Below are positions 19,992 to 52,636 of a stretch of 64,000 nt of DNA, in pieces. The notes beneath the pieces are model-generated. The model searched no databases and was not told the DNA's origin. It saw only the letters and a list, made by a program, of their open reading frames with translations. Position numbers and translations under genes: made by a program. Origin of the DNA: an uncultured Ignavibacteria bacterium. Lineage in GTDB: Bacteria > Bacteroidota > Ignavibacteria > Kapaibacteriales > UBA2268. Where the stretch lies: contig CAIOZA010000142.1 of the NCBI GenBank assembly GCA_903862655.1, forward strand, positions 1 through 64,000, given 5' to 3'. How positions within the stretch are numbered: the stretch's first letter is position 1; each line of letters begins with the position of its first letter.

Positions 19992-21590
19992 ATGAAACGA
20001 AGAGATTTACTCAATCTCACCGGAAATGATGAAAAGCTTCTCGGGACCTTGGATGAATATACCACGCCACTTGACTATGCTAAGTCTTTGCATTTGCTGA
20101 GAAGGCTCTCTTTCCATCCTGCTCCGGATCAGGTTGCTCAATTTGTTGGTAAAACAGCAGCTGAAGCCTTTGAAATCATTGTTGGAAATGGCACTGAATC
20201 AGTACCTGAGCCGACATCATCCATGAAATCATGGCTTGATGTACTTGAAGAGGATCCATTAGACAATTTACCCAATGACGTTCGTGCTGAAATTGAAGGC
20301 AGGCACAAAGAGCATTTCAATGAGTTCACAGCCTGGTGGCTGGATAATATGAGTTCAGAAACTTTTCCTTGCCAAGAGAAATTAACTTTATTTCTCCACT
20401 CTATCTGGTGTATCGAGTTTGCTTATGATACTCTTGCATTTCTACCTCCTCCTCTGTTGTACAGAAATAATGTAACATTACGCAAGAACAGGCTAGCAGA
20501 TTACAAAACGGTTGCTAGAGACGTTACTCTGGACGGCGCGATGATTATGTATCAGAGTTTGTTCTATAGCGGTAAAGCAGCACCAAATGAAAATTATATG
20601 CGGGAGCTGATGGAACTCTTCACTATGGGTATAGGTGACTTGTCTACCGGAGCCGCAAATTATACTGAAGGTGATATTCGCGAAGGAGCTAGAGCTCTGA
20701 CCGGTTGGAGAACTGTAGCATATCTTGGTCAGAATGGTGCTCCTTCAAATCGTCCGTTTGAAACATTCTTCATGAAATCACAGCACGACACAAACGCTAA
20801 GAAGATAATGCAGTTCGGTCAGATCCCTGCCATAACAGATGATGAAAATACTGAAGATTTAGTTAAAAATACTGAAGTTTACAAGGTTATCGATATCCTT
20901 TTCAATGAAAAAGGTATGTCAATTGCCAGATTTATATCTGAGAAAATCTTCAGATTCTTTATCTATAGCGATCCAGGTGCAGTAAATTTGACATTCGTCG
21001 AAGATTTGGCTCAGTATATGTTCGATAATACCTTCAATCTCAAAAAAGTATTTAAAAAGCTATTTACAAGCCAGTTCTTCTTTAGTGATCCTATTCGTGG
21101 TTCTCAGATTAAAACACCAGTCGAATTTATGATTGGTCTTGAGAAAATGCTCGGAGTTGACTATGATTCATTGGGTTCTGTTGGAACAAGACCGGCTGTC
21201 TCTTCTCTTGAACAGATATTATATACTCCACCCAACGTTGCCGGATGGAAAGCATACAGGACTTGGATAAGTACATCAACATATCCGCTCAGAGCTAAGT
21301 ATGCAAAGGATATGATTACCAAAATAACCAATGAACAAATCATAGCATTTGTTAAGAAATTTCCGGACTATACAACCACTACAGCAAAACTTGTCTCAGC
21401 TATGGTTGATTATCTATTACCATTGAAAGTATCACAGGCCAGATTGGACAAATTCCAAACCATTATTCTTAATGGATTGAGTGAAACACAATGGATCGGC
21501 GGAGTAGGGACTAATAATGCAAAGGTTATAGAAGGAATCAGAGCGTTTCTTACGAGTGCAGTTTTATCACCTGATTTTCAATTATGTTAA
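19992..21590 (+). CDS. DUF1800 domain protein
   Basis: 532 residues. Matches the DUF1800 pattern: LHLLRRLSFHPAPDQV near the start, ENYMRELMELFTMGIGD near residue 200, REGARALTGWRT, and TPVEFMIGLEKMLG followed by YTPPNVAGWKAYRTWISTS near 415. DUF1800 genes are usually paired with DUF1501 genes and encode exported proteins of unknown activity. The N-terminus MKRRDLLNL has a twin-arginine-like start but no hydrophobic core behind it, so export is unclear. Good ribosome site (GAGGAAATATC). The DUF1501 gene starts 10 bases after this stop. Confidence 0.92.
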   Translation: MKRRDLLNLTGNDEKLLGTLDEYTTPLDYAKSLHLLRRLSFHPAPDQVAQFVGKTAAEAFEIIVGNGTESVPEPTSSMKSWLDVLEEDPLDNLPNDVRAEIEGRHKEHFNEFTAWWLDNMSSETFPCQEKLTLFLHSIWCIEFAYDTLAFLPPPLLYRNNVTLRKNRLADYKTVARDVTLDGAMIMYQSLFYSGKAAPNENYMRELMELFTMGIGDLSTGAANYTEGDIREGARALTGWRTVAYLGQNGAPSNRPFETFFMKSQHDTNAKKIMQFGQIPAITDDENTEDLVKNTEVYKVIDILFNEKGMSIARFISEKIFRFFIYSDPGAVNLTFVEDLAQYMFDNTFNLKKVFKKLFTSQFFFSDPIRGSQIKTPVEFMIGLEKMLGVDYDSLGSVGTRPAVSSLEQILYTPPNVAGWKAYRTWISTSTYPLRAKYAKDMITKITNEQIIAFVKKFPDYTTTTAKLVSAMVDYLLPLKVSQARLDKFQTIILNGLSETQWIGGVGTNNAKVIEGIRAFLTSAVLSPDFQLC

Positions 21591-21600
21591 GGAGTCCGAA

Positions 21601-23190
21601 ATGAGAAGAAGAAAATTTATCGGCATGACAGCAACGACAACTGCTGGTTTGGTATTGGCTCCAAGTATATTGAAAGCCAGGAAGAGTTTTGGTATTATTC
21701 CAAATGAGAAAATTACATCATTGGATAACGATAATATCATTATCATTATAGAATTATTCGGAGGTAATGATGGTCTTAATACAATCATTCCCGCTGACGA
21801 TGATGAATATTATAAACTCAGACCGACAATCGGAATGCCTAAAACGATTGCCATAAAAGTGAATGATATTTATATGAATCCGGGCTTAGTTCAGGGTGTT
21901 CAGAATAATGGTCTGCAACGTATGTTTGAAGACGGCAGGCTGGCTATAATCGAAGGTATTGGATATGATCAGCCCACATTATCGCACTTTCGTTCTGAAG
22001 ATATCTGGTTAAGTGGTATTAACCCCAAAAACAATAACAATGTCAAACTTTTAGAAGGATGGCTGGGTAGATACTTTGCGGCAAAGTTACCTAATTTCCC
22101 TGTCGAAATTCCCGAACATCCACTGACAATAGCTATAGATGGCTCAATACCTTTACTAAGCAAAAGCGATAAAGGTCACATGGGAATTGCGCTTACTGAT
22201 CCTGATGAATTTTATAAATTAGGAGTTGGCCTAACACCCGTTGATCCTTTGTTGACAGGAACTGAATACTATGATAAGGAATTCAATTTTGTTCATGCGA
22301 TAGCAAGACAATCTGAGTACTATTCTACAGTTGTAAAAAATGCTTATGATACTGGCAAGACCAAGATCAATGCTAATCTCTACAGTACAGGAGGTTTATC
22401 ACAAAAGATGAAACTGATATCATCATTGATTGCAGGTGGGCTAAAAACAAATGTGTACTTTATGAAACTCAGCAATTTTGATTCTCATGCTCAGCAAGCT
22501 GATGCTTCCTTTACAGGAGGTCATTTTACTCTTCTTAATCAGGTTGCTAAAGCGATTTCAGAATTTATGGAAGATGCAGCTATTGGAGGTTACTCCGAGA
22601 GAATCACTGGTATGACAACTTCTGAATTCGGAAGAAGAGCCTATGATAATGGTAGTCGTGGAACCGATCATGGTGCGGCATCGATGCAATTCATCTTCGG
22701 TAGCGATAAATTTGTTAATGGCGGGTATTGGAATAACAGACCAAAGTTAACTGATCTCGATGTGAATGGAAACGTGAAATATCAGACTGATTATCGTGTA
22801 ATTTATACAGAATTACTCGAAAAGAGGCTGGGAGCTACACCATCGGAAATCACGTCAGTTTTTGGTGAGTCATTCTTGCCGCTGAATGTTCTGAAAGATA
22901 GAACTGTAAGCGTTGAGGAATATCTCAAACCAAACTTCAATGAATACCTAAGAATTAGTCCTAATCCGGGAACAGGCAATCAGGTTCTGTCATTTGAACT
23001 GTATAATCCCGGCGTAGTTAATATTACGATATTCAATATTAATGGTAAGGAGGAATTAATACTTCAGAATAATTATCTTGGAGCTGGCGTTTATGAGATA
23101 CCTTTCTCAATAAACAGATCGGGAACATTCATTTGTTCTGTTGCAATCAACAAAAAGAGATATGTTTCAAAATTCATTATTCTAAAGTAA
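21601..23190 (+). CDS. DUF1501 domain protein with Tat-like leader and T9SS tail
   Basis: I take the ATG at 21601, behind AAGGAG, not the in-frame upstream codon at 21556. The 529-residue product starts MRRRKFIGMTATTTAGLVLA, a twin-arginine-type leader. The body is DUF1501 (sulfatase-like fold): VIIELFGGNDGLNTIIP-type motif near 40, DQPTLSHFRSEDIW, MKLSNFDSHAQQ, and TSEFGRRAYDNGSRGTDHGA. The last ~80 residues are a T9SS type-A sorting domain (LRISPNPGTGNQVLSFEL, then YEIPFS and a basic VSKFIILK). It follows DUF1800, its usual partner. A folded substrate passed from Tat to T9SS is a reasonable inference. Confidence 0.92.
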   Translation: MRRRKFIGMTATTTAGLVLAPSILKARKSFGIIPNEKITSLDNDNIIIIIELFGGNDGLNTIIPADDDEYYKLRPTIGMPKTIAIKVNDIYMNPGLVQGVQNNGLQRMFEDGRLAIIEGIGYDQPTLSHFRSEDIWLSGINPKNNNNVKLLEGWLGRYFAAKLPNFPVEIPEHPLTIAIDGSIPLLSKSDKGHMGIALTDPDEFYKLGVGLTPVDPLLTGTEYYDKEFNFVHAIARQSEYYSTVVKNAYDTGKTKINANLYSTGGLSQKMKLISSLIAGGLKTNVYFMKLSNFDSHAQQADASFTGGHFTLLNQVAKAISEFMEDAAIGGYSERITGMTTSEFGRRAYDNGSRGTDHGAASMQFIFGSDKFVNGGYWNNRPKLTDLDVNGNVKYQTDYRVIYTELLEKRLGATPSEITSVFGESFLPLNVLKDRTVSVEEYLKPNFNEYLRISPNPGTGNQVLSFELYNPGVVNITIFNINGKEELILQNNYLGAGVYEIPFSINRSGTFICSVAINKKRYVSKFIILK

Positions 23191-38504: not shown

Positions 38505-39113
38505 TTAGAATCCGTAGGTAATGCTTGCTCCAACACCGAAGCCCATCCAGATTGGGAAGTTCTCATAGTAAGAGTAAACAGTTCGATTCTGAATATAGGT
38601 ATTATTAAATCCGGAGTTGCTCGAAAATCTGGCTAAATAACCACCTTCGAAGCTAAATCCAAGTCGGTTCCAAGCCAATAATTCCAATGCGAATCCTAGC
38701 CCCACCTGAGTGGTTCTTTTTATGTTTTCTATATTGAAATAAGTAGGTGGTGAATTGTTATAATCATAAGGATACTCTGATGATTCATCATACCAATGGC
38801 TAACCGCAGCAAAAACACTAAATCTTGAATATCTGGATCTCATTATGTTATACTGAAATTCCAATCCGATTGTTGTTAGAAGAGCTTGAGGGTTAGGTGG
38901 AAGATTATTCATTTCTCCAAAACCATAAATGTTAACCTTTGTCATGAAATCATCAGACCAATGGTAACCATAGACAAGCCCATAACCTGTAAACATCGAA
39001 GCAGTAAAACCCACTTGGTTGTTGGGCCATTTAACACTTACACTTTCCTGTGAGAATAAAAAACTCAAGGAAAAGAAGAGAGATGTAAAAAAGACAACGA
39101 TAATTTTCTTCAT
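38505..39113 (-). CDS. Outer-membrane beta-barrel protein
   Basis: About 202 residues from ATG 39111-39113 (MKKIIVVFFTSLFFSLSFLFS, signal peptide cut near FSQES); the earlier ATG at 39125 would add four residues. Alternating strands ending in aromatic residues run through the chain (GFTASMFTGYGLVYGYHW, FSVFAAVSHWY, LGFSFEGGYLARF) and it ends VGASITYGF, the usual C-terminal Phe of outer-membrane barrels. The size suggests an 8- to 10-stranded porin-family protein; function unknown. It is transcribed alone. Confidence 0.78.
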   Translation of the reverse strand: MKKIIVVFFTSLFFSLSFLFSQESVSVKWPNNQVGFTASMFTGYGLVYGYHWSDDFMTKVNIYGFGEMNNLPPNPQALLTTIGLEFQYNIMRSRYSRFSVFAAVSHWYDESSEYPYDYNNSPPTYFNIENIKRTTQVGLGFALELLAWNRLGFSFEGGYLARFSSNSGFNNTYIQNRTVYSYYENFPIWMGFGVGASITYGF

Positions 39114-41182: not shown

Positions 41183-41706
41183 TTTTTCCTCATATATGTG
41201 CCGAAAAAGGATGACTCACCAACAACATGTCCTTTGATAGAATCGAGAATGTTTTGTTTTGTCAATCCATTTCGATAATTAGTAGGTATGTTGACTGCAT
41301 AAAGTTTGAAGAAATATCTATGTATGCCATTCGGAGGACATGGCCCGCCCCAGCCAGGTTTCTTGAAATCTGTCATTCCTTCGATTATCCCTTTAATCGG
41401 ATGTTTTGCATAATTTTCGGCAAGTTTATTTATTTTGGTTGGGATATTGTAAACTACCCAATGAATCCACATGCCCATTGGAGCATCAGGATCATCGCAT
41501 ATTAGAACCAAACTTTTAGTTGTAATCGGAACTCCTTTCCATCTGATTTCGGGTGATACGTTTTCATTGTCGCAGGAGTACTTTGCCGGGATTTCACCAC
41601 CGGCTGAAAACGCAGGCGATTCAACTGTTAATATGTCAACAGCTGATATATTGAATGGGATCATTCCTCCCAACAAAATGCAGAAAGTTAGTATTACATT
41701 TTTCAT
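41179..41706 (-). CDS. YbhB/YbcL family PEBP-like exported protein
   Basis: 175 residues. The PEBP fold signatures appear in order: SPAFSAGGEIPAKYSCDNEN, VSPEIRWKGVP, LVLICDDPDAPMGMWIHW, and GWGGPCPPNGIHRYFFKLY. The N-terminal hydrophobic stretch (LTFCILLGGMIPFNISAV) is a signal peptide, so it is probably periplasmic. Bacterial YbhB-type proteins have no proven activity; binding of small anions or phospholipid headgroups has been suggested for the fold. It overlaps both neighbours by 4 bases. Confidence 0.92.
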   Translation of the reverse strand: MKNVILTFCILLGGMIPFNISAVDILTVESPAFSAGGEIPAKYSCDNENVSPEIRWKGVPITTKSLVLICDDPDAPMGMWIHWVVYNIPTKINKLAENYAKHPIKGIIEGMTDFKKPGWGGPCPPNGIHRYFFKLYAVNIPTNYRNGLTKQNILDSIKGHVVGESSFFGTYMRKK

Positions 41707-43007
41707 CGCTTCACCTCAATATCTTGTGGAAGAGTTGGATTATATAACAATTGATGGTATAGTTTCCATTTTGATTCAGAATCATCAGCATTATTCGCAG
41801 CAAAATAGTTTTTTGCCTTCTCGTATCCGACAGAATAAGTAATGATATAGCTTCTATACTTTTCAATGAATCTAAGAGAATTTTCGGCCTCCTGGTCGGA
41901 TCTAAATTCATAATATTTTATCCAGTCCAAAGCGAAATCCTTTTTTAAATTACCATCTAGGTAACGTTTGGCAATTGTAGAGCCCATAAATTTAAGCTTT
42001 CTTCTGAGCTCAAGTATCCTATTATATTTTTCCAGGTTTGAAGGATCAATACCTGCAATTTTACAGATTACATTCTTTTCGAATTCCAATTTATCAGATT
42101 CGCTAAAACAAATTTCAATTCCATAGTTTGCCAGTCCTTCAGAAATAACTGCTTTTGGCGAGAAAAGAGGAATTATTGAAAATTCGATCCATCCTTTCTT
42201 TCGATAAAATTCACGGTCATTTATTGAATGATAAAGATGGTGACCGGGATAGCCTTCGTGGCAAACATAGCCAAGTATCTTCTCGATTGTTATCGGTATA
42301 TCTGTGTTCACCTGAATCACACTAACAGCATTGCCCTTGTACCAATTGTAGGCACCCCAAGGCTGACCTCTAACATATTCGATCTTGAAAGAATCATTCG
42401 AGGGCAGTTCAAAGTGTCTGGATGTTCTTTGTTTGCATTCGATAATCGCTAGCTTAAATACTATGTCTAATTTATTTTCAGGTATTACAAATTTCTGACG
42501 GAAACTCAGCCATCTTTTGGTTAGACTTCCATTTCCGGGAATCATAGTCTCAAGCTCATCAATTATGTCTTTGTAGTACTCAGGAGAATAAGTAGGGCTG
42601 ATGCAATTATATATTAACCAAGATTCTTTATCGAAATTCATTTTTTTTCCACTAACAAGATCAGTTCTTGATATCATAGAAAGAAGAAGATACTTCAAAT
42701 TATTTGATCTTATTTTATCCTCACCAGATTTTGAATCAATTGATTTGGCTAATATTTGAGCGTAATCCTTGATTTTCTCTAAGCTTAAAGTGTCTTTTAG
42801 AGCAATTTTTTTTAAACTATCAGGACCAAAATAACCATCAACGAAATCTTTATCATATCTTCCTAAAGCAAAGCATAGCTTCACATAAGATGCTCCGATA
42901 GTGCTTAAGTTGGTGGAATCAATAAAATCGGGTTCTCTTGAGCATGACATTAGAGCCACCAGCAAGAGAACAAAGAAGTAATAATATATTCTGTTGAAAT
43001 AATTCAT
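41703..43007 (-). CDS. DUF885 family lipoprotein
   Basis: 434 residues. A lipobox ALMSC at about 19-23 follows a hydrophobic leader, giving a lipid-anchored protein. The DUF885 signature CHEGYPGHHLYH (about residue 250) has the HExxxxHH pattern of this putative metallo-hydrolase family, and a further glutamate appears in SEGLANYGIE. The family is often called peptidase-like but the activity is unproven. It is the first gene of the three-gene unit. A TAAATTTG box at 43035-43042 on the minus strand may be a -7 element, but no -33 is seen. Confidence 0.88.
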   Translation of the reverse strand: MNYFNRIYYYFFVLLLVALMSCSREPDFIDSTNLSTIGASYVKLCFALGRYDKDFVDGYFGPDSLKKIALKDTLSLEKIKDYAQILAKSIDSKSGEDKIRSNNLKYLLLSMISRTDLVSGKKMNFDKESWLIYNCISPTYSPEYYKDIIDELETMIPGNGSLTKRWLSFRQKFVIPENKLDIVFKLAIIECKQRTSRHFELPSNDSFKIEYVRGQPWGAYNWYKGNAVSVIQVNTDIPITIEKILGYVCHEGYPGHHLYHSINDREFYRKKGWIEFSIIPLFSPKAVISEGLANYGIEICFSESDKLEFEKNVICKIAGIDPSNLEKYNRILELRRKLKFMGSTIAKRYLDGNLKKDFALDWIKYYEFRSDQEAENSLRFIEKYRSYIITYSVGYEKAKNYFAANNADDSESKWKLYHQLLYNPTLPQDIEVKR

Positions 43008-43152: not shown

Positions 43153-44034
43153 ATGGCTATAGAAATACAATTTAAAGATAAAAATTTTGAAAACAGAAGT
43201 CGCACAGCTGATGAATTTGCCGAGATCGCTCTCGAAGTTCGCAGAGACGTAATAAAAAGTCTCTATCTGGCAAAATCAGGTCACAGCGGTGGATCACTTG
43301 GAATGGCCGATATATTCTCAGTCCTTTATTTCGGTGGTTATCTCCGCTATAATCCAACTGAAGGTGATTGGCAGGGTAGAGATAGATTTGTTCTTAGTGC
43401 TGGGCACATTTGTCCGGTTTTATATTCGGTGCTTTCACGTGCCGGGTTCTTCCCAACAGCAGAATTATCAACACTTAGGAAATGGGGCAGTAGACTGCAG
43501 GGACATCCTGGATTAGATGTTAATCTTCCAGGAATAGAATCTGCGGCAGGTTCACTTGGCCAAGGTGTTTCAATTGCTGTTGGTATGGCTCTTAATCATA
43601 AATATCTGGAAAAAGATGATAAGCTTGTGTTTACTGTAAGTGGCGACGGTGAGCTTCAGGAAGGCTCATGCTGGGAAGCTGCTATGTCAGCTGGGAATTA
43701 TGGCTTAGATAATCTTTGCTGGATCGTTGATAACAATGATTGTCAGATCGATGGCAGAGTTGCAGATGTTATGAGTATCTATCCTTTGGATAAGAAGTTT
43801 GAAGCCTTCAACTTCAATGTGATAACCATAGATGGTCATGATTATCAACAGATTATGACTGCTTTAGATACATTCCGAGAAAATTTTAAGAATAACTCCG
43901 GCAAGCCTACAGTTATTATCGCTAAAACTTTGATGGGTAAGGGCGTTTCATTCATGGAAGATAATTATGAATGGCATGGCAATCCGCCCAACGAACAACA
44001 AACAATTGATGCTTTAAAAGAAATGGATTCATAA
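43153..44034 (+). CDS. Transketolase, N-terminal (TPP-binding) subunit
   Basis: 293 residues, the expected size of the N half of split transketolases. The thiamine-diphosphate fold has the GDGELQEGSCWEAAMSAG motif ending in DNNDCQIDG, where Mg2+ binds. KSGHSGGSLGMADIFSVLY near residue 40 and SLGQGVSIAVGMALNHKYL are family-typical. It works with the C half (44756-45772) to move two-carbon units in the pentose-phosphate pathway. A TAATTTTG box at 43107-43114 may be its -7 element. Confidence 0.95.
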   Translation: MAIEIQFKDKNFENRSRTADEFAEIALEVRRDVIKSLYLAKSGHSGGSLGMADIFSVLYFGGYLRYNPTEGDWQGRDRFVLSAGHICPVLYSVLSRAGFFPTAELSTLRKWGSRLQGHPGLDVNLPGIESAAGSLGQGVSIAVGMALNHKYLEKDDKLVFTVSGDGELQEGSCWEAAMSAGNYGLDNLCWIVDNNDCQIDGRVADVMSIYPLDKKFEAFNFNVITIDGHDYQQIMTALDTFRENFKNNSGKPTVIIAKTLMGKGVSFMEDNYEWHGNPPNEQQTIDALKEMDS

Positions 44035-44755: not shown

Positions 44756-45772
44756 ATGTCAGAATTAAAAAAATACGGGTATAAACCTACCAGATTCGGC
44801 TTTGGACACGCTTTAGTCGAATTAGGTGAACTACATGACAATGTTGTCGTTCTCGGTGCTGATATCACTGGTTCGGTATTAACTTCATTTTTCAAAGAGA
44901 AATTTCCAGAAAGATTCTTCTCAATTGGTATTGCCGAGCAGAATGCAACAACTATTGCCGCAGGATTGGCTTTGTCCGGTAAAATCGCTTTCTTCTCGAG
45001 CTATAGTGCATTTGCTGCTTTTCGCAATGCAGATCAGCTTAGACTTTCTGTTTGTTACAATAATGTTAACGTCAAAATCGGTGGTGGACATTCCGGAGTC
45101 ACAGTCGGGCCAGACGGTGCTACCCATCAGTCTCTGGAAGAAGTGTCTTTCCTCAGAGCATTACCAAATCTTACTTTAATTGTGCCATGTGATTACGAAG
45201 AAGCTAGAAAAGCAACTTTGGCTGTTGGTATCAATCCTGGTCCAGCTTACATCCGCTTTGGCCGATCTGCTGTCCCGATGTTTACTACTAAAGCAACTCC
45301 TTTTGAAATTGGTAAAGCACAAGTGTTTAACGAAGGAACCGATGTTGCGATTGTCGCTTGTGGTATTGTTGTATGGGAAGCTATGCTTGCAGCTGAAGAA
45401 CTGAAGAAAAAGCATGGCATCTCCGCCAGAGTTATCAATTCTCCGTCAATTAAACCGATGGATGTTAAAACCATTACCGATGCTGCTTTGGAATGTGGTT
45501 GCGTAGTTACTGTTGAGGAACATCAGGTGCATGGTGGTCTTGGAGCCGCAGTTGCAGAAGTTCTTGTTAAGAATTTTCCAGTTCCCATGGAATTTGTCGG
45601 AATTCCCGATACTTTTGGTACTAGTGGTGAACCAGATGAGCTGTTGGAAAAATTCGGACTGACCTGGCCTACAATCTATGCTTCAGCTTTGAAGGCAATC
45701 GAACGCAAGGATAAGGGCTTTATCGGCTACAGATTAGTTAAGGACATACCTCAATACAAAGAAAATATGTAG
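44756..45772 (+). CDS. Transketolase, C-terminal subunit
   Basis: 338 residues. Contains the pyrimidine-binding domain (GADITGSVLTSFFKEKFP, then IGIAEQNATTIAAGLALSG with the catalytic Glu in the IGIAEQ motif) and the C-terminal domain of transketolases (VTVEEHQVHGGLGAAVAEV). It completes the active site with the N subunit across 730 bases that hold a lipoprotein gene. A hairpin terminator follows at 45793. Loss of the lipoprotein would restore the usual split-gene spacing. Confidence 0.95.
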   Translation: MSELKKYGYKPTRFGFGHALVELGELHDNVVVLGADITGSVLTSFFKEKFPERFFSIGIAEQNATTIAAGLALSGKIAFFSSYSAFAAFRNADQLRLSVCYNNVNVKIGGGHSGVTVGPDGATHQSLEEVSFLRALPNLTLIVPCDYEEARKATLAVGINPGPAYIRFGRSAVPMFTTKATPFEIGKAQVFNEGTDVAIVACGIVVWEAMLAAEELKKKHGISARVINSPSIKPMDVKTITDAALECGCVVTVEEHQVHGGLGAAVAEVLVKNFPVPMEFVGIPDTFGTSGEPDELLEKFGLTWPTIYASALKAIERKDKGFIGYRLVKDIPQYKENM

Positions 45773-45905: not shown

Positions 45906-47411
45906 ATGAAATTATTATTCTTATTTTTAATGGTGGCAACTATGAAACTATTTTCACAAGATGCTTTACCCGATGACAAGATAACATATAGACCTCCTAC
46001 CGTTGCCGGATCTTTTTACCCAGCTGATCCAGCATCTCTAAGATCAATGGTTGATAATTTCATGACTGAGCTAAAAGGACAGGATGTGCCATCCAGGGAG
46101 ATTATTGGCATGATAGCTCCTCACGCCGGATACGTTTACAGCGGAGAGGTGGCAGCTAAAGCTTATTGTAAATTAATTGGTCATAAGTATGATGTTGTTA
46201 TTATCATAGCTCCCAGCCATCAGATCGGTTTTAAAGGTGCTTCAGTATTCAGTGGTGATGCTTATGTTACTCCTCTCGGTGTTGTTAATGTTGATAAGGA
46301 ACTTGCTTCCGATATTGCATCTGTCAATCCATTAGTTAAACTTTCCATGGATGGTCACAGATGGAAAGGGGATACACCCGAACATTCAATCGAAGTGCAA
46401 CTCCCATTTCTACAGATCTCAATTCCTGGTACTCCAATTGTTCCGATTATCATGGGAACTCAGGATGCCTCGACTCAGGATGCACTCATGCGAGCTATTG
46501 TGTATTCAATAAAAAATTCTGGTAAAAAAGTTCTACTGCTCGCAAGTTCCGATTTATCTCATTATCATGATGATGATAGTGCTGTTGCTATCGATAGTGC
46601 CGGTTTGAATACTCTATACCGTTATGATTATTTTTCTTATCAGATTCAAAACCTCTCAGGGAAATATGAGGCATGCGGCGGAGGACCAATCGTTGTTGTT
46701 ATGACTGCTGCTGAGCAACTGGGGGCAACTTCTGTTGTTCCGGTTAATTATTCTCATTCCGGCAAAACTGAAGCAGGAAAGAATCAATCTAAAGTTGTTG
46801 GATATTTCTCAGCTCTAATGATTAAAGCCACAGAAGAAGAGGTAGATGAGACTCCATTCTTAGATGATTCTGATAAAGAAATCATTATTACCATTGCTAG
46901 AAAAACTGTTGAAAATATTGCCAATAAAAAGGAGAATCTTATTAGCAAAATTGAATCGTTACCTCTCAGTCTTTCAGTCCAAAAGGCAGCATTTGTTACC
47001 ATTGAGAAGCATGGTGCTCTTAGATCATGTATGGGGCATACCTATCCGACAGAATCACTGTTCAATGAAGTTAAATATGCAGCTAAATTGGCAGCAACAA
47101 GTGACTACCGTTTCGGTCAGATTCGTGCATCCGAACTGGATAGTCTTGAATATGAGGTTACCATTCTCTCACGTATGAAGCGCGTTCTGGATATTCGCAA
47201 AATAGAAGTCGGCAAAGATGGACTTCTGATTCGAATGGGGAACTATCAGGGACTATTCTTGCCTCAGGTCGCATCAGAAAGAAGCTGGGACATCGCAACC
47301 TATCTCGAAAATCTTTGCTACAAGGCAGGCTTGCCTAAAGACGCTTACTTTCAACCGGAAGCCCAGCTGTTTTCATTTAGGGCATTGGTAATAAAAGAGG
47401 AAAAGAAATAG
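45906..47411 (+). CDS. Exported Memo-AMMECR1 fusion (AmmeMemoRadiSam B+A)
   Basis: 501 residues. A signal peptide-like start (LLFLFLMVATMKLFS) precedes a Memo-family domain (about 30-305) with the proposed metal ligands H73 (APHAGYVYSG), H105 (APSHQ) and C256 (EACGGGP), and the WKGDTPEHSIEVQLPF block. An AMMECR1 domain (about 320-495) follows: AAFVTIEKHGALRSCMGH and SELDSLEYEVTILSRM. Both modules are normally cytosolic or encoded with a radical-SAM enzyme; none is near. Domain identity is certain; the export signal is an inference. Confidence 0.9.
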   Translation: MKLLFLFLMVATMKLFSQDALPDDKITYRPPTVAGSFYPADPASLRSMVDNFMTELKGQDVPSREIIGMIAPHAGYVYSGEVAAKAYCKLIGHKYDVVIIIAPSHQIGFKGASVFSGDAYVTPLGVVNVDKELASDIASVNPLVKLSMDGHRWKGDTPEHSIEVQLPFLQISIPGTPIVPIIMGTQDASTQDALMRAIVYSIKNSGKKVLLLASSDLSHYHDDDSAVAIDSAGLNTLYRYDYFSYQIQNLSGKYEACGGGPIVVVMTAAEQLGATSVVPVNYSHSGKTEAGKNQSKVVGYFSALMIKATEEEVDETPFLDDSDKEIIITIARKTVENIANKKENLISKIESLPLSLSVQKAAFVTIEKHGALRSCMGHTYPTESLFNEVKYAAKLAATSDYRFGQIRASELDSLEYEVTILSRMKRVLDIRKIEVGKDGLLIRMGNYQGLFLPQVASERSWDIATYLENLCYKAGLPKDAYFQPEAQLFSFRALVIKEEKK

Positions 47412-50410: not shown

Positions 50411-52636
50411 TTAGTATTTCACAAACTTCTGGGTTTGATGCAATTTTCCCTGAGAAATTTGCAGAAAATATACTCCAGCTGATAAACCTGAAATATCATA
50501 AGTGAAATTATTATGGATCTGCTCATTTGCCTTGAGAGTGAATGATTCAATGAGTCTTAAGTTATTACTATAAATATTACAATCAACTTCATCCGAAAAC
50601 ATAGAAGAAATATTTATTGTGATCTGTGTGTTAGCAGGATTAGGCAATATAGATACAAGATTAGTTGCTAAAGAATTATCTTTAACATCTGTACCAAGAT
50701 CAGGCATAAGCCATTTAATAACGTCACCATTTGCAGATGAACCAGAAACAAAAAACTCAGCATTGTTATGTACTGCCATGCATGACATAGTGCTTGTATT
50801 TTCAGGGTCGTTTTTCAAATCTTCATAAATGAACACATCCTTTACGGTAGCAATATTCCAGATTTTTGCGAAATATCCGAAAGTACCCAACATATATTTG
50901 TTACCATTAATAAATGAGATTTTGATATCATCAGCCTGTTCTGATTCACTACCATCACTAAATTTTGTTAAACCTGGTAGTACTTTGATGAATTTCCAAT
51001 CGGGAACACTATAGAGTCTGACATTATTATCTCCGCAAGCAACAGCCAAAATATCATTATTTTTGGAAAATGAAATATCTGTCACACCATTTGTCCAATC
51101 AGGGTTGAAAATATCGCCGTTAGCTTCTTTTTGCCAATTTTTGATGTTATAAATATTGATTTTGTCAATGTAGCGGTTTGATACAGCCATGAATTTGTCA
51201 TCAGTTGAAAATCGAATTGCATTTATTTCTTGTCCCATATCGATTTTTCTGACTACTTTCCAATCATTTGTACTCAGTATTACTGAAGAATCCTGGCCAC
51301 TGCCTAGAACAAGCAAATTCCCATCAGGTGAAAAAACAACAAGTGAATTAGAAGAAGCAAAACCAGATTTGGTAAAGACAATAGTGTTAGTAACTAAATC
51401 CCAAATGTTCAGCTTTGCTTCTGGAAACCCAGAAACAGAAGCAAGAAATTTACTGTCAGGTGAAACATCAAGGCTTTTGATTGGATTCAAATGGCCTACT
51501 AAAGTATTTAATAGTTTTCCGGAATCGATGTTCCAAAGCTTTATAATCCCATCTTCGCCACCGGTTGCAATGAATTTATTATTTGGACTAATCTTGACAT
51601 CATTAATTGGACTGGTGGACATATCGCCGATATAGTCTTTGTAAACTAGATTTGGGATTGGGTTATCCAAATCGAGTTCGTAAACCTTATCGAATTTCTG
51701 TCCTAAAACTTTGTTATCACCAAATGGGCTGAAAAATGGATATTGTCCAAGGAAATTAACTTTTTTATCAATAGTTTTAGTAGCAAGATCCAAAGATTTC
51801 ACATAAAAATTCTCATAGAAAATGAAGAATTTCTTTCCATCTTTTGATTGGAACATCTTATTAGGTCTAAACTCTGTGGTTTTAACGGAGAATGTCTTTG
51901 AATAATCAGTAGTACTCAAGATACAAATTTCGTTTTCAGTTTCGATTGTAGGATCTATGTCACCAGTTGTGACAACAATGGAGTTACCATCAGAAGTATA
52001 GTCGCAATTAATTAAGCCATTTGTAAAATTTGTCAGATAAATTTTTGAAGTATCTTGGAAATTGCAGACATACATGGTGCTTTGAGTAGACACAATGAAG
52101 TTTTTATTGTCAGGGGAAACGGAAAAATCATAATTAAAATAAGTATCTAATGCTGATTCTATAATAACTGAATCTTTCTTAAAGGAATACAGGTCAAAAT
52201 AATTGAGACTAAAGAATTGTGGTTGAATTTCAGCAACAAATAGTTTTGAACCATCCAGAGAAAACTTGATGTTTGTAGGATATATACCTAGGATATCTGT
52301 AAATATCTTTTTATTTTCGGAAATATTCCACACATCTAATTGCTTTGCATTTGAGGAGAATACAGCTAGTAGTTTAGAATCAGGAGAAAAAGCAATTGGG
52401 TAAATATTTTCAGCAGGCTGTTCAAATATTATTTTTTTGCTAATTAAATCAAGCACTTTGATTTTTTGGGGTTGCTGGGTAAAGAATCCTCCCAGATATT
52501 TGAATTCTGATGAAATGCTAGCGGCAGAAATATTTGCTCTAACACCTTTATTATTCCAAATTATATCAAAAGGATATAATTGTGATGTAAATGCATATAT
52601 ACAAATGATCAAAGTCAAATTAAGTTTAGATTTCAT
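50411..52636 (-). CDS. T9SS-secreted WD40-repeat protein
   Basis: 741 residues. A signal peptide (1-20) is followed by two WD40-type blade sets (about 25-340 and 340-640) with repeated motifs such as ISPNNKFIATGGEDGIIKLW, DVSPDSKFLASVSG and VFSPDGNLLVLGSG. The last ~85 residues are a T9SS type-A sorting domain (LPNPANTQITINISSM, then GVYFLQISQGKLHQTQKF). It is therefore likely a cell-surface beta-propeller. It has the same type of WD40 blade and tail as the 13364 gene, which adds VWA and lectin-like parts. Its target is not known. Confidence 0.88.
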   Translation of the reverse strand: MKSKLNLTLIICIYAFTSQLYPFDIIWNNKGVRANISAASISSEFKYLGGFFTQQPQKIKVLDLISKKIIFEQPAENIYPIAFSPDSKLLAVFSSNAKQLDVWNISENKKIFTDILGIYPTNIKFSLDGSKLFVAEIQPQFFSLNYFDLYSFKKDSVIIESALDTYFNYDFSVSPDNKNFIVSTQSTMYVCNFQDTSKIYLTNFTNGLINCDYTSDGNSIVVTTGDIDPTIETENEICILSTTDYSKTFSVKTTEFRPNKMFQSKDGKKFFIFYENFYVKSLDLATKTIDKKVNFLGQYPFFSPFGDNKVLGQKFDKVYELDLDNPIPNLVYKDYIGDMSTSPINDVKISPNNKFIATGGEDGIIKLWNIDSGKLLNTLVGHLNPIKSLDVSPDSKFLASVSGFPEAKLNIWDLVTNTIVFTKSGFASSNSLVVFSPDGNLLVLGSGQDSSVILSTNDWKVVRKIDMGQEINAIRFSTDDKFMAVSNRYIDKINIYNIKNWQKEANGDIFNPDWTNGVTDISFSKNNDILAVACGDNNVRLYSVPDWKFIKVLPGLTKFSDGSESEQADDIKISFINGNKYMLGTFGYFAKIWNIATVKDVFIYEDLKNDPENTSTMSCMAVHNNAEFFVSGSSANGDVIKWLMPDLGTDVKDNSLATNLVSILPNPANTQITINISSMFSDEVDCNIYSNNLRLIESFTLKANEQIHNNFTYDISGLSAGVYFLQISQGKLHQTQKFVKY

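Follow-up and report, generated by a model that had tools for sequence, protein, structure and literature searches.

A Memo-AMMECR1 fusion with a predicted export signal in an Ignavibacteria genome and a candidate exported branch of the AmmeMemoRadiSam system

We describe a gene for a Memo-AMMECR1 fusion in a window of 64,000 nucleotides (the whole stretch of DNA that was analysed) from an uncultured Ignavibacteria bacterium, and propose, with moderate confidence, that its product, which falls in the AmmeMemoRadiSam family, is exported by Sec to the periplasm, where it is either free or anchored, and belongs to a dispersed system, the radical-SAM enzyme (rSAM) of which carries no signal and is encoded elsewhere in the genome. 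Comparison with related loci raises the further possibility, for and against which we find the case evenly balanced, that the complete AmmeMemoRadiSam system is extracytoplasmic in many phyla and that the organism of the window has a reduced version of it.

Results

The preliminary description of this DNA had placed the Memo (B) and AMMECR1 (A) modules of the system in one chain, and Pfam, NCBIfam and an AlphaFold model all bear this out (Table 1). In particular, the fusion scored 241 bits with TIGR04336 (AmmeMemoSam_B; cut-off 26) and 149.4 bits with TIGR04335 (AmmeMemoSam_A; cut-off 99), and the model, computed from a 30-member alignment, contains two confident domains (pLDDT 90.8); in Foldseek searches, the Memo half matches human MEMO1 and the AMMECR1 half matches structures of archaeal AMMECR1. 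The Pfam scores and the structure matches rule out chance as the source of either domain assignment. Of the metal ligands proposed earlier, namely H73, H105 and C256, the two histidines stand, but residue 256 is an alanine and the cysteine ligand is its neighbour C257. Human MEMO1 binds iron through the equivalent residues H49, H81 and C244 (PMC11081632).

Table 1 Features of the fusion gene and its conserved upstream neighbours, in window coordinates
Feature	Position	Strand	Basis
Transketolase N-terminal subunit, conserved upstream neighbour	43153..44034	+	Pfam; synteny
Transketolase C-terminal subunit, conserved upstream neighbour	44756..45772	+	Pfam; synteny
Memo-AMMECR1 fusion gene (501 aa)	45906..47411	+	Open reading frame; Pfam and NCBIfam; orthologues
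Predicted Sec signal peptide, residues 1-17, inferred cleavage between S17 and Q18	45906..45956	+	Hydrophobicity; orthologues; codon pattern; model
Memo domain (AmmeMemoRadiSam protein B), residues 31-303	45996..46814	+	PF01875 5.7e-56; Foldseek to MEMO1 1.8e-21
H73, predicted metal ligand (MEMO1 H49)	46122..46124	+	Invariant in 30 fusions; aligned
H105, predicted metal ligand (MEMO1 H81)	46218..46220	+	Invariant in 30 fusions; aligned
C257, predicted metal ligand (MEMO1 C244)	46674..46676	+	Invariant in 30 fusions; residue identity checked
AMMECR1 domain (protein A), residues 329-494	46890..47387	+	PF01871 8.5e-44
C375 of the AMMECR1 LRxCxG motif	47028..47030	+	Nearly invariant; Leu in L024 (G060)

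A signal peptide had also been suspected on the fusion, and we assessed it with simple sequence rules, combining several weaker lines of evidence. The N-terminus, MKLLFLFLMVATMKLFSQDALP, has a hydrophobicity of 2.80, which matches that of exported and membrane proteins encoded in the window (clearly cytosolic window genes score 1.6 or less), and in the AlphaFold model a low-confidence linker follows the leader. A hydrophobic leader is kept in 20 of the 22 family orthologues, L022 and L023 being the two without a visible signal. Gln occupies the predicted +1 position in 16 of 22 family members, the Q-rule pattern of the Bacteroidetes (PMC5837995, PMC10653852), and is found at the predicted +1 position of two exported-looking window genes (at 38508 and 29104) as well. 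Among sister species, the second codon positions of the leader vary least or tie for least and synonymous changes are present, a pattern that fits a translated hydrophobic segment. The leader score, the orthologues, the codon pattern and the +1 Gln thus agree with the suspected signal, and export of the fusion can be regarded as well supported but not proven. Another window gene (21556-23187, plus strand) encodes a protein with a Tat-like leader (MRRRKFIGMTATTTAGL), which suggests that the organism may possess a Tat pathway.

Split transketolase genes precede the fusion in many members of the family, and in many of them (L202, L199 and other family loci) a gene for a CCA-adding-type polymerase (identified by Pfam in one example) lies directly 3' of it; in one genus the gene at this position is LpxK-like by motif. 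The preliminary description had listed a palindrome region and a TonB receptor as the next genes in the window. The latter is a minus-strand gene that resembles TonB receptors, with matches that fall under the Pfam cut-offs, whereas the former proved weak, being made up of an imperfect inverted repeat of 16 nt and a single CCTTCCTCGAGGAAGG element. That sequence occurs once in the genome, which rules out a repeated element, and an Rfam search near the fusion gene gave no RNA match. Also encoded in the window, both on the minus strand, are a WD40 protein with a type IX secretion C-terminal sorting domain (50411-52636) and a lipoprotein-like protein of 434 aa with the motif HEGYPGHH and no Pfam match (41706-43007).

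The observation that no rSAM gene adjoins the fusion is true locally. A search of the rest of the genome, as had been recommended, located one on another contig (C27:64393-65397, L003), with a TIGR04337 score of 260.5 bits against a cut-off of 220; absence of the enzyme from the genome is thereby ruled out. The L003 protein has no export signal. Genome searches also identified the fusion gene as the sole AMMECR1 gene of the genome, and a second Memo gene (on contig C20) that has an extra N-terminal region; we rejected the latter as the missing partner because many genomes of the order lack both fusion and rSAM and yet contain similar Memo-like matches. The synteny of related genomes agrees with the window: members of the window's family have no rSAM close to the fusion, the one exception being a triple fusion in G054. 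This is a single open frame of 848 aa (L134:6488-8989) that comprises a signal-like leader, Memo, AMMECR1 and rSAM.

We counted fusions (at more than 200 bits) and rSAMs (above the TIGR04337 cut-off) in 123 genomes of the order. The fusion is present in 23 and the rSAM in 21 (both in 20, the fusion alone in 3, the rSAM alone in 1 and neither in 99). The co-occurrence gives a Fisher value of 7e-19 that is inflated by relatedness, and the safer figure is the genus count, by which the presence of the two agrees in 14 of 15 genera. One genome with no rSAM found, G060, keeps the fusion (L024), and there the cysteine of the LRxCxG motif is replaced by Leu. Clustering of the three genes is common but is not taken as required; in many other genomes of the phylum, A is encoded away from the rSAM.

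Export of such a fusion had been thought unusual, a view that the survey of other lineages contradicts. Elsewhere in the phylum, outside the window's family, fusions that carry a lipoprotein or Sec leader have as their neighbour a Tat-leader rSAM and, in the majority of cases, also a membrane protein of ~710 aa with a spermidine-synthase-like domain (together, the exported triad). A search with an alignment as the query gave named relatives (the window protein alone as the query gave none), and we surveyed 80 named loci, which came from Acidobacteria, Zixibacteria, Omnitrophota, Chloroflexi, KSB1, Deltaproteobacteria, Bacteroidota and others. An rSAM was encoded within 9 kb in 43 of these loci, and 36 of these rSAMs had a Tat or hydrophobic leader; the membrane protein was present in 26 of the 80. 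As controls, the leader rule flagged none of 67 other rSAMs and none of 31 solo AMMECR1 proteins. Signal-bearing fusions are therefore found in many phyla, often beside a signalled rSAM, and lipoprotein-type leaders are present on the fusion in independent lineages. A literature search, mainly of papers outside subscription journals, found no report of exported members; the key earlier genomic work is that of Burroughs et al. 2019 (J Biol Chem).

The match in compartment between fusion and rSAM is strong but not complete. In a tree, the signal-bearing rSAMs form one clade with a few unsignalled members. The exceptions to the match are recurring genomes with one exported fusion or AMMECR1 and two rSAMs, one signalled and one not, and the opposite mismatch in G484 (L209, L292, L309), where a signal-less fusion is accompanied by two rSAMs, one with a Tat signal and one unsignalled. 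Exported fusions paired with unsignalled rSAMs are found at L265, L278 and L282.

Eleven of the Tat-signal rSAMs (L124, L127, L225, L230, L233, L235, L247, L248, L263, L294 and L297) contain a c-haem-type CxxCH motif immediately ahead of the first cysteine cluster or rSAM domain. Attachment of c-type haem takes place outside the cytoplasm, so that this motif, if it is used, supports an extracytoplasmic location. Within the order, six genomes have a Tat rSAM, and full-length relatives of the membrane protein are found in all six of these and in no others. The protein (L129:5790-7934 and relatives) is modelled with 14 helices, seven on either side of the domain, and the positive-inside charge pattern of its loops predicts that the domain faces the periplasm.

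The genome of the window contains the first member of the exported triad, its signal being predicted. The 98% complete assembly contains no signal-bearing rSAM, L003 being the only rSAM, and no match to the membrane protein was found in it (G000). In the trees, the window's fusion belongs to a family clade near both exported acidobacterial fusions and signal-less ones (L209, L211, L212, L223), and the organism's rSAM groups with unsignalled rSAMs. Given these two absences and placements, the exported triad may not apply to this organism.

Discussion

In our proposal, the full branch would consist of a signal-bearing fusion, as a lipoprotein or periplasmic protein, acting as partner of an rSAM with a Tat or Sec signal, together with the 14-helix membrane protein and its periplasm-facing domain. 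The rSAM would generate a radical on its substrate, either a protein or a small molecule, and a subsequent redox step might be carried out by the cysteine of AMMECR1 together with the metal site of Memo; SAM or a product could be handled by the membrane protein, and in some lineages electrons could arrive via c-type haem. In the organism of the window, the rSAM step would be cytoplasmic, either preceding the periplasmic step or separate from it. One survey places AMMECR1 at the top of anaerobe-linked families (PMC13386939), which fits an oxygen-sensitive rSAM. The preliminary description had suggested that an extracytoplasmic fusion could have a role different from that of the cytosolic system; this is plausible, and an exported branch of the same system is the better framing of it.

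Several features of the window's fusion could be read differently. If translation began at an internal Met and the leader were untranslated or non-functional, the protein would be cytoplasmic and would form an ordinary pair with its distant rSAM gene. In-frame internal ATGs do lie just before Memo in many orthologues (M13 here), L022 and L023 lack a visible leader, the organism's own rSAM has no signal and signal-less fusions are among the neighbours in the tree. We nevertheless consider a purely cytoplasmic protein unlikely, because the leader stays hydrophobic in nearly all orthologues despite residue changes, with synonymous changes and the lowest or joint-lowest variation at second codon positions, because its score is like that of exported window proteins and +1 Gln is frequent, and because the same fusion has lipoprotein-type leaders in independent lineages. 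The use of both starts, which would yield one form that is exported and another that stays in the cytoplasm and works with the rSAM there, would accommodate the Met that recurs near the end of the leader in most orthologues and the many genomes that combine one AMMECR1 with a signalled and an unsignalled rSAM. Met is, however, common in hydrophobic stretches, and this one is unfixed in position and absent from L016 and L020, so that we think dual localisation distinctly improbable.

A different departure from export within the system is that the exported fusion has left the rSAM behind for another periplasmic role, metal binding for example, and that the rSAM has been inherited by chance. The separation of the two genes throughout the family, G054 excepted, would be in keeping with this, as would G060, with its fusion, its lost AMMECR1 cysteine and no rSAM found. 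Against it are the matching presence of fusion and rSAM in all but one of the genera and the invariant metal ligands, and we give this explanation the lowest probability of those considered. An exported member of a dispersed AmmeMemoRadiSam system is accordingly the reading that we prefer.

For Memo and AMMECR1, which are poorly understood from bacteria to humans, an exported branch would narrow the candidate substrates and cofactors and would offer separable genes for knock-out. It would be surprising, if confirmed, for the whole system, rSAM included, to lie across the inner membrane, the system being usually thought of as cytoplasmic. To our knowledge, an extracytoplasmic rSAM enzyme is not established and would be unprecedented, and the question arises how an iron-sulphur enzyme that depends on SAM and electrons would function in the periplasm. 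The CxxCH motif and the adjoining membrane protein are concrete, testable leads.

Comparison with known systems

The domain of the triad's membrane protein matches spermidine synthases, and the protein shares this domain fold with the fused MFS/spermidine synthases (NF037959) and SpeE. It differs from these in its length, in having seven helices on each side of the domain and in that its catalytic Asp, which we presume from E. coli SpeE, is not conserved. The Memo domain of the window shares its fold and its His-His-Cys metal ligands with iron-bound human MEMO1 (7kq8; PMC11081632), from which the fusion differs in sequence (~23% identity), in its predicted export and in being joined to AMMECR1. 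LigB-type extradiol dioxygenases (for example, 3vsg and 3wr8) likewise have the fold, but with a glutamate at the position of the Memo cysteine, and no dioxygenase activity was found for MEMO1 (PMC11081632).

The window genome resembles the exported triad in its signal-bearing fusion and differs from it in lacking the Tat rSAM and the membrane protein. Compared with the usual AmmeMemoRadiSam system (TIGR04335 for A, TIGR04336 for B and TIGR04337 for the rSAM), its genes are distinguished by the fusion of A and B, the predicted export signal and the dispersed arrangement, whereas A and B above their cut-offs and a TIGR04337 rSAM in the same genome are what the two have in common. We would therefore place the fusion gene in the AmmeMemoRadiSam family but outside the full triad, and regard it as a variant that is apparently new by its predicted location.
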